This document shows positions 1-21,970 of a stretch of DNA of 27,757 nucleotides, one piece after another. Origin of the DNA: a virus; IMG/VR virus record IMGVR_UViG_3300044491_001486, positions 1 to 27,757 of that record; one strand, 5' to 3'. Each line of letters opens with the position of its first letter. The stretch's first letter is position 1. Below the pieces are notes generated by a model. That model ran no database searches. It was given only the letters and a program-made list of their open reading frames with translations, and had not been told where the DNA came from. A program made the translations under genes and the position numbers.

Positions 1-3000
1 GCTGGTGCTGCTAATATTGTTTCACATGGCTTTACAGAAGCTGTAACAGGAAGTGCTTGGCTATATAATTCAACTGCTACTGATGCTACAGGATTAACAA
101 GTGCTGGAACATATTATGTTAGACGTAGTACTGCAAATCAAGTAACTCTACACCCAACTGCACAAGATGCACTTGATAATACCAATCAAATTATTGTAAG
201 TGGCGGTACAGGTACTCAAACATTAAAAGATGCTACTTGGGATGATAGTGTTGGAGCACTTTCAGGATTTTGGACTGGCGATGCAATACTACCACGTAAA
301 AGTGTAACAAGACGTGAAGGCGACACCATGACAGGTGCGTTGACATTACATGATCATCCACAGCCATTTGCAGGAGCAGGAACTCCACAAGGTGCAGATG
401 ATTTACAGGCAGCAACAAAATATTATGTTGATGCACAGCAGTACAGTAGAAGTGAAAACATTTATGTAAACATCAACGGTGATGATTTACAAACAGAAAC
501 ACCTCCGGGTTTGGCTGGACGTAGCGAGAAGTATGCTTACAAAACAATTGCCGGAGCATGTTTACGAGCTGAAAGATTACAGGAAGCAGCAGAGATTGAT
601 ATTGGACCATACGTACAAACTCTTACGTTTACAGACGGCGGCGGATTGCAAAATGGTAAAATTACAAACTATTCAAGTAACGGTTATACAGCGCCAGCAG
701 TTGCAGCTACTACAACAGTAACAGCAATCAATACTAATAAACAAGCAATTATTGATCAAACTATTGCATTTATTGCAACAACATATCCTACCTTTGTTTA
801 TAGTGAAGCGGTGTGTAGAAGAGATTTAGGACTAATACTAGACAGTATTGGAAAAGATATTCTTGCAAGTACAGTAAGTGTAAAACACAATTATTTAAGT
901 AGATTTGCAGGCTTGCGCTACTTTAGTAATGCTAGTGGCGAAGTTGCAATATCTCAAGCAGGCGGCGGGCAGTATACCGAAACGGTCGCAGCAATTAGTT
1001 TTGCTAAAACTACTGCACTAGGATTTATTGCAACTGCACTTGGTGGTGGGTTTGCTTCCGATCAATGGTATCTAGCATCAAGTGCTAGATTTGATGATGT
1101 TTTAAACACTATTGACAGTAGCAGTGCTGATCCAACATTAGTTGAAGCTAGTAATAATTATAAAGTATATATTAGTAGTGGTAATAATAAATTTTTAACA
1201 CAGGCAGGCGATCCAACTGAAGACGAACCAAACATTGATATTTTTCCTGGTAAAATTATTAGAGGTAAGAAAAGTGGTGCTGTTGGTGTTGTTCAAGAAT
1301 ATAGTAGAGGTGTCGATACAGTTGGTACACCGGTATATGATACTATCGAGGTTAAACTACTACTACCAATTGATTTCATTGAAGAAGAAGAAGTTGAATA
1401 TGGCGCCTTTGTTAAAAAGCAACAAATTAGTATACGTATTGAATCAGGTACATATGAAGAACAACTGCCAATTAGATTACCTGCTAACGTAAGTATCAAA
1501 GGAGACGAATTTAGACGAGTCCTAGTGCGTCCTGCAGCAGGCATGAGTCTAAGTCCATCAGCTAACACATTCTTTTACAGAGATGCTACAATAGATGGCA
1601 ATGTTACTGCAACTGGCGGTGAAGCATATGTAAACGATCTTACAGGTAATACTGACGGTTACTATGGTAGACATTACCTAACTGATCCATCAACAGCATT
1701 AAGCATTAGTAATTTTGGTGCAACTAATCCAGGTAAATTTAACGAAGCAGCAGACTTGATTAGTCTAAACAGACAGTTTATTATTGATAGAACAATTAGT
1801 TATATTGTTGCAACGTATCCTAGTTTAGTATACGATGAAGCAAAATGTCGTAGAGATACAGGATATATTGTAGACGGTATTGAATCTGATTTACGCAAAG
1901 GCGGCAGAATACAAAGTGGTATTAATCAAAAATCATATGCTGCAAATGTTGTTCCGGGGCAAGAAACTGAAACAGCAGCAGCAATCAATAATATTGCTAC
2001 TATTATTACAAGTGTACTAGCTCAAACAGCATACGCTGGTGCTGGCGGTAATACAGGTCAAGTTGTAAATGCTAACTTAACAGCCGAAACTAATGCAAAC
2101 ACAAATGCAAGCGCTCTAGTAAGTTTTGTATCTTTTGCGTTTGATGCGGGCTACAATCCAGCCAAAGACAACAACGAAATGGATATGTTCCTGTGTAACG
2201 ATAACACTATTATTAGAAATATTACAGCACAGCGACAAGGTGGCTTTATGATGGTGCTAGATCCAGAAGGTGCTATCTTTACACGTTCGCCATATGTACA
2301 AACCGGATCTTCATTTAGTAGAAGTATTAATGCTAAAACCTTTGCAGGCGGTATATTTATTGACGGTTATTGCTACAACATGCCAGCTACAGTTATCCAA
2401 GGCGGCAACAGCGATCCTTTCCGTATTCAAATTGAAGCACCAACTACAAGTATTTTAGGACAACGTAAACCTAATCTTCCTTGTAGTTTCTTTGAGTTTG
2501 GCAGACGTTATCAAGTTAACGCTATTGTTGATTATGTTGCAAATAACGGCAGTGGAAAAGCTACTGCAACACTTGTACTAGACAGTGCAGCTAATGGTGG
2601 CGCAGGTTTAGACGACGACATTGACTCAGCAGGTGGACCAATTGATATTGTTTTACAAGGTGCTGGTAACAAAAGTATGTTAGCAAACGACTTTACACAA
2701 GTTAACGATTTAGGTTATGGCGTAGTTGTTACAAACAACGGACTTTCAGAACTTGTTAGTGTGTTTACATACTATGCGCACACAGGCTACCTATCATTAA
2801 ATGGTGCCCAGATACGTTCGCTTACAGGTAACAACAGTTATGGTAACTACGGACTGGTTGCAGAAGGTAGTGATCCTGATGAAGTTGCAAAATCTATTTC
2901 ACTTGCACAAGACTTAACACAGCCTGTTAAAATATTCTCAGTTGATCAAGAAATTGAAATTACTGGCAACAGTGCTACACCAGCACGTAACGCAGTAATT

Positions 3001-12419: not shown

Positions 12420-13007
12420 ATGGCAAGCACTATAGACACAAGTACAATTGACGCAGCTTATCCAGTAGCGGGTATCGACAACGATAGTCAAGGATTTCGT
12501 GACAACTTTAATAGTATAAAAACAAATTTAACAACTGCTGGATCAGAGATTACAGCACTACAAGCAAATCGTGCTAGAATTGACGAAGCCAATAATCATG
12601 TTGGCAACGAAATTCAAGATGCTGAACTGCTACAAGTTACTGAAAAGTTTAACAACAGTAATCAAACACTAACAGGTGATCACGAAGTAGACTATAGAGA
12701 TGCACATGTACATCAATTCAATGCTACTGCACCAGCAGGTAATATTATGACAGTATCGTTTGTTGGATGGCCTACAAATAGATATGCAAAACTGCGTGTC
12801 ATTATGAGTGTAAGTAGTGGAGTATCGACTAACATTACACTGTCAGCTGGCAATGGCACTGGCTTAAATGATAATAACGCTGCATGGGTTGGTGGAAACA
12901 ATATTCTAACACACACTGGCTCTATTGGACAAAAGATTATTGTTGACGTGTTTACATACGATACAGGAAGCAACCTGTTCTTTAACTATGTAGGATCGTT
13001 TGATTGA
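12420..13007 (+). CDS. virion protein with fibre-type N-terminus
   Basis: A 195-residue protein with N-terminal TIDAAYPVAGIDNDSQGFRD followed by NF.SIKTNL, a diverged form of the docking module seen at 6234 and 8129. A helical segment with QANRARIDEANNHVGNEIQD follows, then a C-terminal beta domain (HVHQFNATAPAG, VSFVGWPTNRYAKLRVI, NILTHTGSIGQK, FFNYVG). This resembles the small beta-sandwich proteins of marine T4-like tails, by memory only. A late promoter and good ribosome site precede it. Its TGA overlaps the next ATG (TGATG). It is probably a structural tail or fibre protein. Confidence 0.7.
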   Translation: MASTIDTSTIDAAYPVAGIDNDSQGFRDNFNSIKTNLTTAGSEITALQANRARIDEANNHVGNEIQDAELLQVTEKFNNSNQTLTGDHEVDYRDAHVHQFNATAPAGNIMTVSFVGWPTNRYAKLRVIMSVSSGVSTNITLSAGNGTGLNDNNAAWVGGNNILTHTGSIGQKIIVDVFTYDTGSNLFFNYVGSFD

Positions 13008-13231
13008 TGCATCCACAAGCTGACGTTAAGATTTTATCTGTACAAGAACTCGAAAAGAAACTATACAAACTCAACGGAATGTATTTTATGACTGACAACG
13101 AAGATGTTCGTCAGCAAATGATTTTATTAATGGACACATACAAGCTAGAGCTTGAAGAAAGACGTTTAGGTCAGCAAAAAAGTGCAGAAGAACCTAAAAC
13201 AGATCTTGACAAATTAATAAATGTAAGTTAA
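13007..13231 (+). CDS. small helical protein, unknown
   Basis: 74 residues from ATG at 13007, which overlaps the preceding TGA. A TTG three bases earlier would add one residue, but the ATG in the TGATG overlap is the simpler start. The sequence is mostly amphipathic helix (VQELEKKLYKLNGMYFMTDN, then ELEERRLGQQK) with a charged, coiled-coil-like pattern. It has no recognised domain. It sits between the last virion gene and the polymerase-III-alpha-like fragment, so it may be an assembly helper or belong to either group. Confidence 0.6.
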   Translation: MHPQADVKILSVQELEKKLYKLNGMYFMTDNEDVRQQMILLMDTYKLELEERRLGQQKSAEEPKTDLDKLINVS

Positions 13232-13240
13232 ACTAAGTGT

Positions 13241-13771
13241 ATGCTTATGAAAACAGACGAACTCGGTATCCCACGGTTTACAAATAAAGACTTAGTTAAC
13301 ATGATCTATACTGGTCATGTTGACAAGTGTCATGTAGTTCTGTGTGAGCAATCGGATGATGTAGATAAGTTTAATGAGGCTATGGAAGAACAGGGTCTAG
13401 ACAAACTACAAAAGTATATTCCATTAGATGTAAACAAAAAGACTTTTGACGGTGTTTGTCAAAGTGAATGGTTTATGCCTGACGAATACAAAAACATTAA
13501 CGTATATGAATACGTATTAGGCAAAGCAGAAACACCCTGTCCACAGCATGTACAAGATCGTATATGGCAAGAATTAGATGCTTTTAGAGAACGTGGCATG
13601 AAAGACTTACTACGCTATATGATCTATCTTGTAGATTTTATGCGTGAGAATAATATTGTGTGGGGTGTAGGTAGAGGTAGCTCTGTAGCAAGTTATGTGT
13701 TGTATTTGATTGGTGTGCATCGTATAGATTCAATTAAATATAACTTAGACTGGCGAGAATTTTTACGTTGA
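13241..13771 (+). CDS. stand-alone DNA polymerase III alpha-like GRGS fragment
   Basis: A 176-residue protein. Residues about 110-176 resemble the start of the DnaE palm region: EL.AF...G, then VWGVGRGSSVASYVLYLIG with G144-R145-G146-S147, then a D.IKYNLD..EFLR ending. In bacterial DnaE this is followed directly by the PD.D.D catalytic acids; here the protein stops just before them, and the next frame is an unrelated enzyme. It therefore has the nucleotide-phosphate-binding GRGS motif but no polymerase active site. Residues 1-110 are not recognised (VDKCHVVLCEQ, KYIPLDVNKKTFDGV). The TGA overlaps the TTG start of the radical-SAM gene (TTGA). Start could also be ATG 13247. Function is unknown; a decoy, a regulator of host Pol III, or a nucleotide sensor are possibilities only. 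Confidence 0.68.
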   Translation: MLMKTDELGIPRFTNKDLVNMIYTGHVDKCHVVLCEQSDDVDKFNEAMEEQGLDKLQKYIPLDVNKKTFDGVCQSEWFMPDEYKNINVYEYVLGKAETPCPQHVQDRIWQELDAFRERGMKDLLRYMIYLVDFMRENNIVWGVGRGSSVASYVLYLIGVHRIDSIKYNLDWREFLR

Positions 13772-15639
13772 ATAATATATACCTAATACAAGCAAGCGAT
13801 GCATATGGACCTAATAAGTTTTTGCCTTTGGCAATAGCATATCAATGGTGCTATGGTAAAAACGATAATTGGAATCTTGTAGACACTGTTATTGAAAAAC
13901 CTGTTCCAAGTGAATATGTTGCTGACATGATAGAACCAAAAATGGTTGTAATGAGCAGCTATATTTGGAACTGGGAATACAATAAACAACTAGCCGCAGA
14001 AGTAAAACGTGTTTATCCTGATTGCGTTATTGTTACAGGCGGTCCGCAAATTGACAAACGTGACAAAGAGTTCTTTGACAAGTATCCTATGTTTGATGTA
14101 GCAGTACACGGCGAAGGCGAAAATGCTATGAAAGAAATACTTGCCAGACCAATTGGCGAGTATGATGACATTGTGCATACACAAACACGTACACATATGC
14201 CTAAACCTGCAATGCGTAGAAAAAGTATAGCAGATATTCCAAGTCCTATACTAGAAGGCTTTTATGAGCCTATTATGGCAAAATATCCTAAAGATACTAT
14301 GTGGCAAGTTACTTGGGAAAGTTTACGTGGGTGTCCATATCATTGTGCATTCTGCGATATCGGCGACAGCTATTGGAACAAACTTACACTGTTTGACATG
14401 GAACGCTGTCGACAAGAAATTGAATGGATGGGCAAGAACAAAATTGAATACGTAAGTGTTTGCGATAGCAATTGGGGATTGTTAAAACGTGATATAGAAC
14501 TTACGCAAATGGTTTTAGATACAAAAGAAAAGTACGGCTATCCTATGTGGTTTGATGCTACATGGGCAAAGAACAATGTAGATAGAAACTTTGATATTGC
14601 ACTCATGAATAAACGTGCGCCTGTAAATATTTTCAAAGGTGTTACGTTTGCTATGCAAAGTTTTAACGATACAACACTAGTTGCTAGTGAACGTTTTAAC
14701 ATTAACGAAGAACAAGTAGCAGAATATTTGCAAAAGTATAGAGAAGAAGATATTCCTACATACAGTGAACTTATTTGGCCAATGCCGGAAGAAACTTATG
14801 ATAGTTTAAAAAGCAATGTACAAAAACTAATTGATTTAGGACAAGACAGTTATCTAATGATACATCCGTTGGTTATTACATATAATGCTACAATGGGTGA
14901 TAGTAAATATCAAGAAACATATGGCATGGGTGTAAAGGAAATACCACTGGATACATTTTACTTGCGTGACACTGATATGGAAAAGTATATCTTTGAATAT
15001 ACAGGCGCAGTAGTAAGCACACGCACAGCAGATTGGGATACAGTTCTACAAGGATTTATGTTTAGTTGGGTAAGTATCTTAATGTACTACTATGGATTTG
15101 GACATTATCTAGCAAAATATCTAAGCAAACAAGGAATACGTGAAGTAGACTTTTTTGAAGATTTGCGCAAATGGATAGTTGACAATCCAGATACTTTGCT
15201 GTATAGTGAATATAAAGCTACAGAACAACACCATGTAGATACATATTATAACCAAAAGTTGTGGGGAAGAAAAGTACACGGCGAAGATGACATTTATTGG
15301 GAATACAAAGGTGCTAGTGCTTGTGTGCTACACGATAACAAAGAACAATATGCAAATGAGCTTGTAAAATTTTTAGAAGAGTGCTATAACATAGATAATG
15401 CAGAAGAAGTAGTGTCGTTAAATTTAGCCATGACAAGAGATAAAACACAAACATACCCGTTTGTAAAAACAACAAATGCACAGGTTGCACAGGATATGTT
15501 GGGTATAAATAGTGATACACTTTTAATTGATCACTATGATAAAGAACAAATTGATCCGCTATTGTGGTATCAAAAGGCTTATCATTGGGATAGGAAAAGC
15601 CGATACTGGCGATGTACTGCCCAGGCAAATGATAAGTAA
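13768..15639 (+). CDS. B12-binding-domain radical SAM protein
   Basis: A 623-residue enzyme. Residues about 1-135 have the Rossmann-like layout of B12-binding domains (VVMSSYIWNW, VIVTGGPQ, VAVHGEGENAMKEI) but lack a clear DxHxxG ligand motif. The radical SAM cluster CPYHCAFC is at C189, C193 and C196, in GCPYHCAFCDIGD. The C-terminal 250 residues are helical and Trp/Tyr-rich with no known fold that I can name. The family uses a [4Fe-4S] cluster and S-adenosylmethionine to make a 5'-deoxyadenosyl radical; B12-type members often methylate or rearrange unreactive carbons. Substrate is unknown. The start is TTG in TTGA, overlapping the upstream stop by two bases. An electron donor is needed; a ferredoxin lies 5 kb downstream. 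Confidence 0.85.
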   Translation: MNNIYLIQASDAYGPNKFLPLAIAYQWCYGKNDNWNLVDTVIEKPVPSEYVADMIEPKMVVMSSYIWNWEYNKQLAAEVKRVYPDCVIVTGGPQIDKRDKEFFDKYPMFDVAVHGEGENAMKEILARPIGEYDDIVHTQTRTHMPKPAMRRKSIADIPSPILEGFYEPIMAKYPKDTMWQVTWESLRGCPYHCAFCDIGDSYWNKLTLFDMERCRQEIEWMGKNKIEYVSVCDSNWGLLKRDIELTQMVLDTKEKYGYPMWFDATWAKNNVDRNFDIALMNKRAPVNIFKGVTFAMQSFNDTTLVASERFNINEEQVAEYLQKYREEDIPTYSELIWPMPEETYDSLKSNVQKLIDLGQDSYLMIHPLVITYNATMGDSKYQETYGMGVKEIPLDTFYLRDTDMEKYIFEYTGAVVSTRTADWDTVLQGFMFSWVSILMYYYGFGHYLAKYLSKQGIREVDFFEDLRKWIVDNPDTLLYSEYKATEQHHVDTYYNQKLWGRKVHGEDDIYWEYKGASACVLHDNKEQYANELVKFLEECYNIDNAEEVVSLNLAMTRDKTQTYPFVKTTNAQVAQDMLGINSDTLLIDHYDKEQIDPLLWYQKAYHWDRKSRYWRCTAQANDK

Positions 15640-15656: not shown

Positions 15657-16046
15657 ATGGCAACCCAAGGTCGTAAAGTATATAGAACAGCAAGAGGCAA
15701 ACAAGTCGATCTCGATCTGTTAATTAGTCGTAATGAATTAACACCGGCAGTTGGAAACCATAGAGTAAATGCACGTGGTGACGAACTAGGACAAGGTGGC
15801 AAAATTGTTAGAAAAAGAGAAGATGTACTCAAGGATTACTATCAAGCACAGCCCGGCATGCGTGACGAAACTGTATTAAGTTCAGACGCAAAAATAACAC
15901 AAGCCGAGCAAGAAGAATTTGAAGCATTTGATGAAGAACCGATTTTAGAAAAGCCTGTAGAAAAACCTAAGGCTAAATCTAAAGCAGATCCGCTTGACGA
16001 ATGGATCGAAGACGAAGAAGGCAATTTTATTAGAAAAGGTGAATAA
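15657..16046 (+). CDS. acidic-tailed conserved phage protein, unknown
   Basis: A 129-residue protein with a basic N-terminal half (GRKVYRTARGKQVDLDLLIS, NELTPAVGNHRVNARGDELG) and an acidic, lysine/proline-rich C-terminal half (EEPILEKPVEKPKAKSK, DEWIEDEEGNF). An AAGGAGA ribosome site precedes ATG at 15657. I recall similar proteins in marine T4-like phages, next to the cochaperonin gene, but know no function. The TAATG overlap with the next gene indicates coupling with the gp31-like cochaperonin. The charged tail could bind a capsid or chaperonin partner; that is conjecture. Confidence 0.65.
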   Translation: MATQGRKVYRTARGKQVDLDLLISRNELTPAVGNHRVNARGDELGQGGKIVRKREDVLKDYYQAQPGMRDETVLSSDAKITQAEQEEFEAFDEEPILEKPVEKPKAKSKADPLDEWIEDEEGNFIRKGE

Positions 16047-16426
16047 TGAACACAGAAGGAATGGGTGGCGGATTTAAAATTACGCCAAAAGTTAAAGGCA
16101 CACTAAGGCCTATTAGCAATCGAGTTATTGTAAGCAATATGCATTTTGGAGAACAAAAGACAGCTTCAGGACTTATTCTTACTAGTGACGATGGTGATTC
16201 ACGTGGTATCTATCCACGTTGGGGCCAGGTCCATGCAAAAGGACCAGAAAATGATGACGACTATAATATCGGCGATTGGGTGTTGGTAGAACACGGACGT
16301 TGGACTCGCGGCATTGATATTGACGAAGGAGACGGAGAAAAAACTCTGCGTATGGTAGAAGCAGAAAGTATTCTAGCGTTTAGTAATGAAAAGCCCGAAG
16401 GCGTACAAATGGCAGAGGAAATATAA
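16046..16426 (+). CDS. GroES-like cochaperonin (gp31-type)
   Basis: A 126-residue protein with GroES-fold features: an N-terminal strand GTLRPISNRVIVSNM, a mobile-loop equivalent FGEQKTASGLILTSDD, a WGQVHAKGPE strand and the GDWVLVEHGRWTRG hairpin, with a C-terminal strand LRMVEAESILAF. In T4 gp31 replaces GroES and lets GroEL fold the major capsid protein. Sequence similarity is to GroES rather than to T4 gp31, so the functional link is inferred. It begins in TAATG with the upstream gene and ends in TAATG with the next. It fits a capsid-folding role together with the host GroEL. Confidence 0.75.
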   Translation: MNTEGMGGGFKITPKVKGTLRPISNRVIVSNMHFGEQKTASGLILTSDDGDSRGIYPRWGQVHAKGPENDDDYNIGDWVLVEHGRWTRGIDIDEGDGEKTLRMVEAESILAFSNEKPEGVQMAEEI

Positions 16427-18557: not shown

Positions 18558-18735
18558 AGTAGAGCAACTGCCAGCAGATCATGCTGTTGTTGAAGTAACA
18601 TGGGCTCCGGCTACAGAAGAAAGTGTTGAATTTAATAAGCATAGTTTAGCTGAGTTAGATGAAGTACTAGATCAATTACAAATTTCGCCTGCCTGGTTAG
18701 CAAGACTAGAACAAATTATAGAGGACAGTAAATGA
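18529..18735 (+). CDS. 68-aa acidic protein, unknown
   Basis: TTG start at 18529 in the stop-start overlap TTGA; AAGGAAGGA lies about 10 nt upstream, supporting it. The product is acidic and mostly helical (IVEQLPADHAVVEVTWAPAT, then LAELDEVLDQLQISPAWLAR, then EQIIEDSK). Its stop overlaps the ATG of the clamp loader by ATGA, so it is likely co-translated with gp44. I do not recognise it. A sigma-70-like sequence begins at the same TTG codon. Confidence 0.6.
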   Translation: MTKFEKTINIVEQLPADHAVVEVTWAPATEESVEFNKHSLAELDEVLDQLQISPAWLARLEQIIEDSK

Positions 18736-19646
18736 AAGACTTATGGGTAGAGAAGTATCGGCCTAAAACAGTTGAAGGGTATGTATTTAGAGATGAAGCA
18801 CAACGTAATCAAGTTAATACATGGATTAAAGATAAAACTATTCCTCATTTGCTCTTCAGTGGTAATGCTGGAATTGGCAAAACTACTCTTGCTAAGTTGC
18901 TTTTTAATGAGCTTGATACTAATCCGCTAGACATACTAGAGATTAACGCAAGTCGTACAAACAGTGTTGACGATGTACGTGACAAGATTGTTTCGTTTGT
19001 ACAGATGATTCCATTTGGTGACTTTAAGGTTGTACTACTAGACGAGGCTGATTACTTGTCGCCAAACGCACAAGCGGCATTGCGTGGTGTTATGGAGGAG
19101 TATCATACTACAGCACGTTTTATTCTAACGTGTAACTATCCTAATAGAATTATTCCTGCTATCCACAGCAGATGTCAAGGCTTCCATATTGCTAAGATTG
19201 ACCAAACAGAGTTTACAGCAAGAGTTGCAGAGATTCTTATTACAGAAGGTGTAACTCCAGACTTAGATACACTTGACACATATGTAAAAGGCACCTATCC
19301 AGACTTACGTAAGTGTATCAACACAGTGCAAATGAATTCAACAGACGGTGTGCTAGTAAAGCCCAATGAAGGCGATAGTGGTGCTGCCGATTGGAAATTA
19401 GAAATGGTTGAACTGTTTAAGGCAGGCAAGATTTCAGACGCACGTAAACTATTATGCGGTACAGTACGTGCCGAAGAAATGGAAGAGATCTATCGTTGGT
19501 TGTATGACAACATTGAATTGTTTGGCAGTGAAGATCAACAGGACAAAGCTGTGCTAATTATCAAACAAGGCTTAGTAGATCACACACTAGTTGTAGATCC
19601 TGAAATTAACTTAGCAGCAACGCTTATCAGGCTCGGGCAACTTTGA
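18732..19646 (+). CDS. 44: sliding-clamp loader large subunit (gp44)
   Basis: A 304-residue AAA+ ATPase. WVEKYRPKTVEGYV is the family N-terminus, Walker A is GNAGIGKTT (44-52), Walker B is VLLDEAD (101-107), and the arginine-finger SRC motif is at 146-148 (HSRCQGF). A helical C-terminal domain follows. Length is near that of T4 gp44 (319). It loads the gp45 clamp onto primer-template for the phage polymerase; in T4 it works as a 4:1 complex with gp62. No gp62 is visible beside it: the next gene, in TTGA overlap, is a different protein. The clamp-loader call is strong. Confidence 0.9.
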   Translation: MKDLWVEKYRPKTVEGYVFRDEAQRNQVNTWIKDKTIPHLLFSGNAGIGKTTLAKLLFNELDTNPLDILEINASRTNSVDDVRDKIVSFVQMIPFGDFKVVLLDEADYLSPNAQAALRGVMEEYHTTARFILTCNYPNRIIPAIHSRCQGFHIAKIDQTEFTARVAEILITEGVTPDLDTLDTYVKGTYPDLRKCINTVQMNSTDGVLVKPNEGDSGAADWKLEMVELFKAGKISDARKLLCGTVRAEEMEEIYRWLYDNIELFGSEDQQDKAVLIIKQGLVDHTLVVDPEINLAATLIRLGQL

Positions 19647-20632
19647 TATACTTAATTGATCAAAACAAAAAATGCTTAGTACTTGATCAAAATCTAAAAC
19701 CTATGAAACCGTTTGATGACTATAGGCATGATGCTGTAATGTATCTTATGGATACAGTTTCTATGCCGCTAGTTGTACAATTTGATAACATAAATGATCC
19801 GCCAGACGATGAAGAACACAATGTAACACATATACTAGACCACTTGGGCACAGATAAAGTAAGTTGGTTTAGTTTTGAGCCTGTGCATGTTTTGCCAAAA
19901 GATGCAATTGACTTTATGAGAAAATACTTAGGCAGACTTGATAATCATTATTGTAGTGAATATGAATTTGCCTACAGTTTAGGTATTGATTTTGAGTTCT
20001 TTGTTCCTAATAAAGGACTTGAAAAATACTTCGATCATATGAGTTACATTGACACATATCTTTGGCATGAATCTACACAAATAGTTTTACCAGAGATTGA
20101 TAAAACTTTTGAGAAGACTTTCTTCTGTCCAAACAATGCTGACAAGATTCATCGACGGTTACTTGCAAAGCACTTGATACGCTATCATAAGAATGAAAGT
20201 CTAGTTACATACGGCGACTGGCAAGAACATCCTATGATTGACCAAGAATTATTAGAAGCAGCATATAAAAATAGTTTTTGCACAGTAGTAACAGAAACGT
20301 TATATAACAAACAATATGCTAACTTTAGCGAAAAAACAATAGATCCAATGGCAAACTACAGACCTTTTGTTCTAGCGGCACCGCCGTTTACACTGCGTCT
20401 AATGAAAGAACTTGGGTTTAAAACTTTTGATGCTTGGTGGGACGAAAGTTATGACCAAGAACTAGACGATAAAAAACGTATAAGAAAATTAAAAAATGTT
20501 CTAGACTTTATAGCAAGTATGTCGTATAATGATAAACAACTAGTACTTGTTGAGATGGACGAAATACTACAACACAACAGGCTGCATATTAAAAATTTAG
20601 AAAAGGTATTCTATGACATATATTGTAAATGA
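19643..20632 (+). CDS. glycosyltransferase-like protein, unknown
   Basis: A 329-residue protein starting at TTG 19643 (TTGA overlap with gene 44; no good ribosome site). The C-terminal half contains [11 protein letters not shown], then [35 protein letters not shown] and WWDESYD. This TE...SEKT.PIA..PF order recurs in uncharacterised phage and bacterial proteins and recalls the nucleotide-sugar-binding TEK region of GT10-like GT-B glycosyltransferases. The N-terminal half ([30 protein letters not shown]) looks Rossmann-like. It is not gp62 by length (T4 gp62 is 187 aa) or sequence. Sugar transfer to DNA, fibre or host surface is possible but unproven. Confidence 0.5.
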
Positions 20633-20954
20633 TGCATGTATTAAATGTAAACACATGGACTGTGTAGAGGTTTGTCCAGTAGATTGTTTTTACGAAGGTG
20701 AAAACATGTTAGTTATTAAACCAGATGAATGTATCGATTGCGGTGTATGTGAACCTGAATGTCCAGCAGATGCTATTAGAGCAGATACAGATCCGGGCAT
20801 GGAACAATGGGTTGAATTCAACGATAAGTGGGCAAGTGTTTGGCCCAACATTACTCTAATGCGCCCTGAAGATGTTCCTCCAGATGCAACAGACTGGCAC
20901 GATGTAGAAGGTAAAATGGAACACTTTAGTGAAGCACCAGGAAAGGGAGATTAA
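20613..20954 (+). CDS. fdxA: FdxA-type 7Fe ferredoxin
   Basis: A 113-residue ferredoxin. Nine cysteines fall at 9, 12, 17, 21, 25, 40, 43, 46 and 50; the CxxCxxC-P order ([12 protein letters not shown]) binds a [4Fe-4S] cluster, and the first group (CIKCKHMDC, then CPVDC) fits the [3Fe-4S] site of FdxA-type ferredoxins. The sequence [18 protein letters not shown] is very close to alphaproteobacterial FdxA. The C-terminal extension ([13 protein letters not shown]) is also of that type. Length matches bacterial FdxA (about 107-113). Overlaps the previous gene by 20 nt; AAAAGG precedes the ATG. It is an electron carrier of likely host origin, possible donor for the radical SAM enzyme. Confidence 0.88.
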
Positions 20955-21160: not shown

Positions 21161-21314
21161 TCTAGTACGTGTAAATGTGCTAGAAGAAGAAATACAGTAT
21201 TACAAAACTTTATTGCAGCCACATGACACTGGTCATATACATACTACAATAAATTTTTTAAGCCAAAGATTATCGAATTTAAAAGGAGAATTAGCTGAAT
21301 GGCCGTTCGATTAG
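21135..21314 (+). CDS. 59-aa coiled-coil protein, conserved type
   Basis: Frame from ATG 21135 to TAG 21312-21314, overlapping genes on both sides. The product begins MSNQTLVNDLVRVNVLEEEI and continues with QYYKTLLQPHDTGHIHTTI, then FLSQRLSNLKGELAEW. The central LLQPHDTGHIHTTI phrase recurs in small T4-like marine phage proteins I have seen. It is mostly helical, coiled-coil-like and acidic. It is too short for routine length cut-offs. Function unknown. Its tail overlaps the thyX start by 16 nt. Confidence 0.6.
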   Translation: MSNQTLVNDLVRVNVLEEEIQYYKTLLQPHDTGHIHTTINFLSQRLSNLKGELAEWPFD

Positions 21315-21970
21315 TAAGTTATAGTAAAGCAACAGACGAATTTGCAGCAGAAGGATTAACAGATCTGCAAGAGCTTATTGCGTTTTGTGCAAAAGTATCA
21401 AATCCGCAAGCACAAATTAGCACAGAAACAAGCGAAAGGCTTATCAAGTATCTAATCAAACATGCACATTGGTCACCACTTGAAATGGTTAATGCTGTAT
21501 TAGAAATTGAAACAACACGAGATATTGCACACCAAATTGTGCGACATCGTAGTTTTGCGTTTCAAGAGTTTAGTCAACGTTATGCTAACCCTGCCGAAAT
21601 GGGTGATCAATTTGTATTACGTGAATGTAGATTACAGGATACAAAGAACAGACAGAACAGTATTGATACTGATGATCGCGAATTAACTCGCCTGTGGGAA
21701 ATTAAACAACAGATGGTAATCAATGCAGCCAAAGAAGCGTATGAGTGGGCTATTGATAATGGCATTGCTAAAGAGCAAGCACGGGCTGTTCTACCAGAAG
21801 GTAATACTAAAACAAGATTATATATGAATGGCACTATTCGTAGTTGGATTCATTATATTGATTTACGGAGCGCCAATGGAACACAAAAAGAACACATGGA
21901 AATCGCTATCCAGTGTGCTAAAGTCATCTCAGAAATTTTTCCAATGGCAAATGGCTTATCCAAACTATAA
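21299..21970 (+). CDS. thyX: flavin-dependent thymidylate synthase ThyX
   Basis: A 223-residue enzyme with the ThyX signature RHRx7S at R82-H83-R84 and S92 (RHRSFAFQEFSQRY). It also has the SPLEMVNAVLEIE, YEWAIDNGIAKEQARAVLP and LRSANGTQKEHMEIA segments of the family. Length is typical. It makes dTMP from dUMP with methylene-tetrahydrofolate, FAD and NADPH. Many marine T4-like phages carry ThyX, often with hosts that lack ThyA. AAAGGAG precedes ATG 21299. Together with the MazG genes it fits nucleotide supply for phage DNA. Confidence 0.93.
   Translation: MAVRLVSYSKATDEFAAEGLTDLQELIAFCAKVSNPQAQISTETSERLIKYLIKHAHWSPLEMVNAVLEIETTRDIAHQIVRHRSFAFQEFSQRYANPAEMGDQFVLRECRLQDTKNRQNSIDTDDRELTRLWEIKQQMVINAAKEAYEWAIDNGIAKEQARAVLPEGNTKTRLYMNGTIRSWIHYIDLRSANGTQKEHMEIAIQCAKVISEIFPMANGLSKL

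Follow-up and report, generated by a model that had tools for sequence, protein, structure and literature searches.

We analysed a 27.8-kb virus record (the window), a fragment of an incomplete genome, which encodes a small DnaE-like protein among replication genes (Table 1). The first-pass annotation had aligned this protein by eye, through a GRGS motif, with bacterial Pol III alpha, and profile searches bore the relation out. The protein matched the Pfam family PF07733 (E 2.4e-13, 50.7 bits, cut-off 23.9), with residues 95–175 aligned to profile positions 14–94 of 260, and ten NCBIfam Pol III alpha models matched on the same stretch, all stopping at residue 175; the PHROG family phrog_11127 covered nearly the full protein (E 7.5e-44). 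The protein carries a VWGVGRGSS motif and ends in ...NLDWREFLR. In searches with the whole protein, residues 1–75 gave no Pfam or structural match, and because these residues are too few to hold a PHP domain, the protein lacks one. Anticipating the reading set out below, we refer to this protein and its homologues as N-halves. A profile of 64 homologues aligned to E. coli DnaE 319–392, and the aligned stretch stops about 9 residues short of the catalytic D401, so that the protein does end just before the catalytic acids, as had been noticed from the sequence. The unrelated enzyme seen earlier in an overlapping frame is encoded by a B12-binding radical SAM gene whose start overlaps the N-half stop.

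Table 1 Position of the DnaE-like gene, its parts and its neighbours in the window
Feature	Position	Strand	Basis or remark
Conserved small upstream gene	13004..13231	+	75 aa; tblastn hits directly precede the N-half at many of 80 loci
Proposed N-half of a split minimal Pol III alpha, phrog_11127	13241..13771	+	176 aa, ATG to TGA
Phage-specific N-terminal part, residues 1–75	13241..13465	+	No family match, no PHP domain
First part of the DnaE palm, residues 76–176	13466..13768	+	VIA-align on DnaE 278..393 and PolC 822–964
GVGRGSS, GS nucleotide-binding motif of family C polymerases	13664..13684	+	Residues 142–148
B12-binding radical SAM gene	13768..15639		Start TTG 13768
p129 (phrog_14844), which usually follows the N-half	15657..16046	+	PHROG match, synteny
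GroES/gp31-like co-chaperonin, conserved neighbour	16046..16426	+	Cpn10 E 1.8e-5; synteny
T4 gp44-like clamp loader, conserved neighbour	18732..19646	+	phrog_168 E 1e-75; synteny

Spread and conservation of the N-half

Relatives of the N-half are encoded by at least 595 stretches in IMG/VR and by the isolated jumbo phages PA5oct/MIJ3, 121Q, GAP32, CBB, Atu_ph07 and XacN1. The window protein is 34–96% identical to 63 non-redundant homologues drawn from 141. Within the GS motif, G142, G144, R145, G146, S147 and S148 are invariant in all 64 aligned N-halves. Equally invariant (64/64) are H160, D170 and E173 (window 13718–13759), residues that are atypical of DnaE. The last of these occupies the position of E. 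coli R390, an arginine in DnaE which we take to contact the dNTP phosphate.

Whether related genes also end before the acids, a check proposed at first reading, could be answered uniformly: the C-terminus lies 29–31 residues past GRGS in each of the 141 proteins inspected. Moreover, a PDxDxD motif was absent from the 600 bp downstream of the N-half, in every forward frame, at 141 of 141 loci, and we therefore rejected a frameshift or readthrough into the acids.

A second gene with the catalytic acids

A search with TIGR00594 at a permissive cut-off, covering five large records, yielded a second small ORF in a marine relative of the window, G001, and in XacN1; a PF07733 search for the same protein missed it. 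The G001 protein (MPDIDIDF...KKHNTGVYVT...GYFKLDFLNV...IIRPAKRHL...FKKAHAIAYA) belongs to phrog_11778, whose members, about 190 aa long, start at the PDIDID motif and occur in relatives of the window and in jumbo phages. We refer to them as C-halves. Both families are annotated merely as 'DNA polymerase', the window protein falling in phrog_11127 and the C-halves of its relatives in phrog_11778. An alignment of 52 C-halves showed D9, D11, D13, K69, D71, R138, P139 and H171 to be invariant in every one. From the alignment, we take K69 to correspond to K553 and R138 to the RPG arginine of DnaE. D9, D11, D71 and H171 are the equivalents of E. coli DnaE D401, D403, D555 and H760, of which the three aspartates are catalytic and the histidine is a steric gate (PMC8485763). 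The motifs PDIDID, RP and KxHA follow one another in the DnaE order, and the C-half begins at most 18 residues ahead of the first acid in 150 of 150 proteins. No C-half was found in the 27.8-kb window; to judge from the relatives, the window's own phage would be expected to encode one.

Both halves were modelled with AlphaFold2 (pLDDT 84.6 for the N-half and 89.2 for the C-half) and the models searched against the PDB, where family C polymerases ranked first for both. In VIA-align, residues 76–176 of the N-half superposed on DnaE 278–393 with Z 10.4 and an rmsd of 2.5 over 92 residues (4jom), confirming the palm relation for which a structure prediction had been suggested, and with Z 9.2 and an rmsd of 2.9 over 97 residues on 2hnh. 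Residues 1–191 of the C-half superposed on DnaE 395–780 (Z 9.0, rmsd 4.1 over 184 residues, 2hnh); roughly half of the DnaE residues in this range are without an equivalent in the C-half. The corresponding PolC ranges are 822–964 and 965–1300, which places the seam at 964/965, and on both DnaE and PolC the two ranges abut without overlap. For both halves, every match listed above Z 5 was a family C polymerase. With the N-half alone, Foldseek gave weak E-values (best 0.014); its ranking, the VIA-align Z scores and the sequence profiles concur in assigning the N-half to family C.

Measured against DnaE, the features of the polymerase are distributed over the two proteins. The window protein has the palm with its GS motif and stops at the equivalent of residue 393, and the three catalytic aspartates are thus not joined to it in one polypeptide. 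The fingers with the RPG and KSHA motifs are represented in the C-half partner by the invariant R138-P139 and H171. The C-half has no thumb, and PHP, clamp-binding and C-terminal domains are absent from both halves. PF17657 reached only E 0.009 on the C-half, below its cut-off. The distance from the first acid to the NTGV strand is about 29 residues in the C-half versus about 105 in a contiguous marine phage DnaE (locus L329), and from the first acids to the NTGV/HAGG strand the C-half is about 75–85 residues shorter. Separately, three marine contigs that also carry a split C-half have a contiguous ORF for a DnaE-like protein of about 560 aa, in one case cut by the contig end, with a DLPDVDIDF motif and apparently no PHP domain (L255 13390–15078, L256 3278–4948, L257 3–1262); these phages apparently have an unsplit small polymerase alongside the split C-half.

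Co-occurrence and gene neighbourhoods of the halves

In each of the eight annotated jumbo phages tested, the two halves are present as single copies separated by 15 to 224 kb, and both halves also occur in the records G001, G016, G045 and G051–G058. Among records of at least 235 kb, which entered the comparison via searches for one half or the other and so are not a random sample, 19 of 21 carry both. The two exceptions are compatible with a split enzyme because the whole neighbourhood of the missing half is absent from each: G017, with the C-half only, lacks gp44, GroES and PhoH, the neighbours of the N-half, and G028, with the N-half only, lacks primase, gp41 and UvsW, the neighbours of the C-half. 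Contigs of 71–168 kb usually have one half only. The one-sided contigs checked gene by gene were G017, G028, G029 and G030; the latter two, with the N-half only, also lack the primase–gp41–UvsW block. We therefore rejected the idea that these four represent genuine N-only or C-only genomes; most likely they are fragments. The marine relatives G001–G004, G006 and G016 encode a family B polymerase, as does every one of the eight annotated phages (W01–W08).

The order N-half, p129, GroES, gp44 and often PhoH is common to marine loci and jumbo phages, p129 being found in nearly all of the 80 marine loci and in MIJ3, 121Q and Atu_ph07. The N-half thus lies with the clamp loader, and most of the phages inspected have the C-half close to primase, gp41 helicase and UvsW. 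Almost without exception, p129 comes immediately after the N-half; it has a strongly conserved N-terminal motif, GKxVDMDxL..NELTPAVGN.RVNARGDELGPGGKI, followed by a variable acidic tail. Its VDMD made it a tempting candidate for the carrier of the acids; the second Asp is a Glu in Atu_ph07, no third acid was seen, and the true acids sit in phrog_11778, and p129 was rejected on these grounds.

Of the 80 nearest loci, only four (L001–L003 and L062) have the radical SAM gene beside the N-half, and in those lacking it the next recognised gene after the N-half is of the p129 family; its place in the window is an occasional insertion. G001 encodes at least three radical SAM homologues (loci L153 and L154 among them), and such genes look like a multi-copy family in these phages. 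Elsewhere in the window, near the replication block, translations read by eye indicate a small ferredoxin-like protein (20613–20954) and a ThyX-like thymidylate synthase (21299–21970), and a 329-aa protein with no family match (19643–20632) has homologues at several places in G001.

Proposed split polymerase and known systems

The clean seam, the DnaE motif order, the invariant residues on both sides, the co-occurrence of the halves, their conserved ends and an independent published proposal lead us to suggest, with a probability of roughly 0.8, that a minimal family C DNA polymerase is split in these phages, with its N-terminal half encoded by the window gene and the partner by a second, unlinked gene. 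The active site 'missing' from the window protein is probably supplied by this second protein. We infer that the N-half would contribute the first part of the palm and the GRGS loop holding the phosphates of the incoming nucleotide, and the C-half the palm sheet, whose three catalytic acids would bind metal ions and carry out catalysis, together with a fingers core bearing the sugar-selecting histidine; the two would assemble into one active site that adds deoxynucleotides. Such an enzyme would work alongside the family B replicase encoded by these phages, and probably has a specialised task, for instance in repair, in filling gaps or in synthesising one strand. Four points speak for caution. 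With thumb, PHP, clamp-binding and C-terminal domains all absent, it is hard to see how the enzyme would grip DNA, which counts against a polymerase; the invariant Glu at the R390 position is a further cautionary sign; an obligate heterodimer would not be expected to be expressed from genes far apart; and the 27.8-kb fragment itself contains no C-half. More tentatively, and at less than even odds, the pair may act as a naturally split, thumb-less family C polymerase in trans, a dedicated second polymerase next to a family B replicase, whose activity is gated by joint expression from two replication blocks.

The absent thumb, the Glu in place of R390 and the phage-specific invariants H160, D170 and E173 would also fit halves that assemble into something other than a polymerase, be it a structural complex or one that transfers nucleotides to a non-primer target. 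We regard this as unlikely, though it deserves to be kept in mind, since the three acids and the equivalents of K553 and of the dNTP-selecting H760 are all invariant, and the neighbours of both halves are replication genes. Less probable still is a decoy or regulator, raised as a suggestion in the first-pass annotation, which drew no conclusion on function and had no view of genes beyond the window. In such a scheme the N-half alone would mimic a piece of host DnaE and titrate a host replisome partner or nucleotide. That the N-half stops short of the acids and has a gene separate from that of the C-half invites such a view, but a partner with intact catalytic residues, phrog_11778, is encoded in the same genomes of related phages, the N-half region excludes the clamp- and tau-binding parts of DnaE, and the invariant GRGS fits catalysis; the suggestion thus finds no support. 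That the window ORF is a sequencing artefact or a pseudogene of a full DnaE, as its short length alone might suggest, is scarcely credible, because none of the 141 strongly conserved homologues, from many samples and isolates, contains a full polymerase, all share the same end, and no PDxDxD follows downstream.

The split polymerase proposed here would settle the puzzle posed by the 'DnaE fragment without acids', an annotation met with in dozens of jumbo phages. It also supplies the exact seams and residues for asking whether a polymerase cut in its palm works as two subunits, and it bears on what a second polymerase does in giant phages.

The genome paper on phage CBB of 2017 listed a truncated Pol III alpha of 172 aa, CBB_328 (PMC5259590); this protein is a homologue of the window N-half, and its partner gene goes unrecognised in the portion of that paper available to us. 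For a major marine jumbo phage group, a PF07733 frequency of 51.9% has been reported (PMC9123017), which possibly reflects the N-half, or else a full polymerase. A split minimal Pol III alpha was described in group 2.2 jumbo phages by Iyer et al. 2021 (PMC7824862), who, in the accessible part of the text, proposed that two proteins reconstitute the enzyme and left this as a proposal; a literature search with the terms tried brought up no further report of phage family C polymerases that are split, and a search for transcript data on these genes likewise found none.

Compared with DnaE and PolC, the phage enzyme would share the palm segment with GRGS and, in the partner, the PDIDID acids, KxD, RP and KxHA in the same order, but it would consist of two polypeptides and has no PHP, thumb, clamp-binding, OB or tau-binding domains. 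Closer is the arrangement of Iyer et al., which the window gene joins. There, as far as the available text describes it, the N-terminal NTP-binding unit has its own gene, the C-terminal Mg- and DNA-binding unit is distant, and a family B polymerase is present beside them; like that unit, the window protein is a stand-alone GRGS protein that ends before the acids. It differs in coming from a marine clade whose N-half is 34–47% identical to the N-halves of other groups. As far as the accessible text of that study allows a comparison, the new elements here are the seam at residue level, the division of the invariant residues between the halves, the uniformity of the ends, the deletion of the thumb, the association of the two halves with different replication blocks and the window's marine clade.
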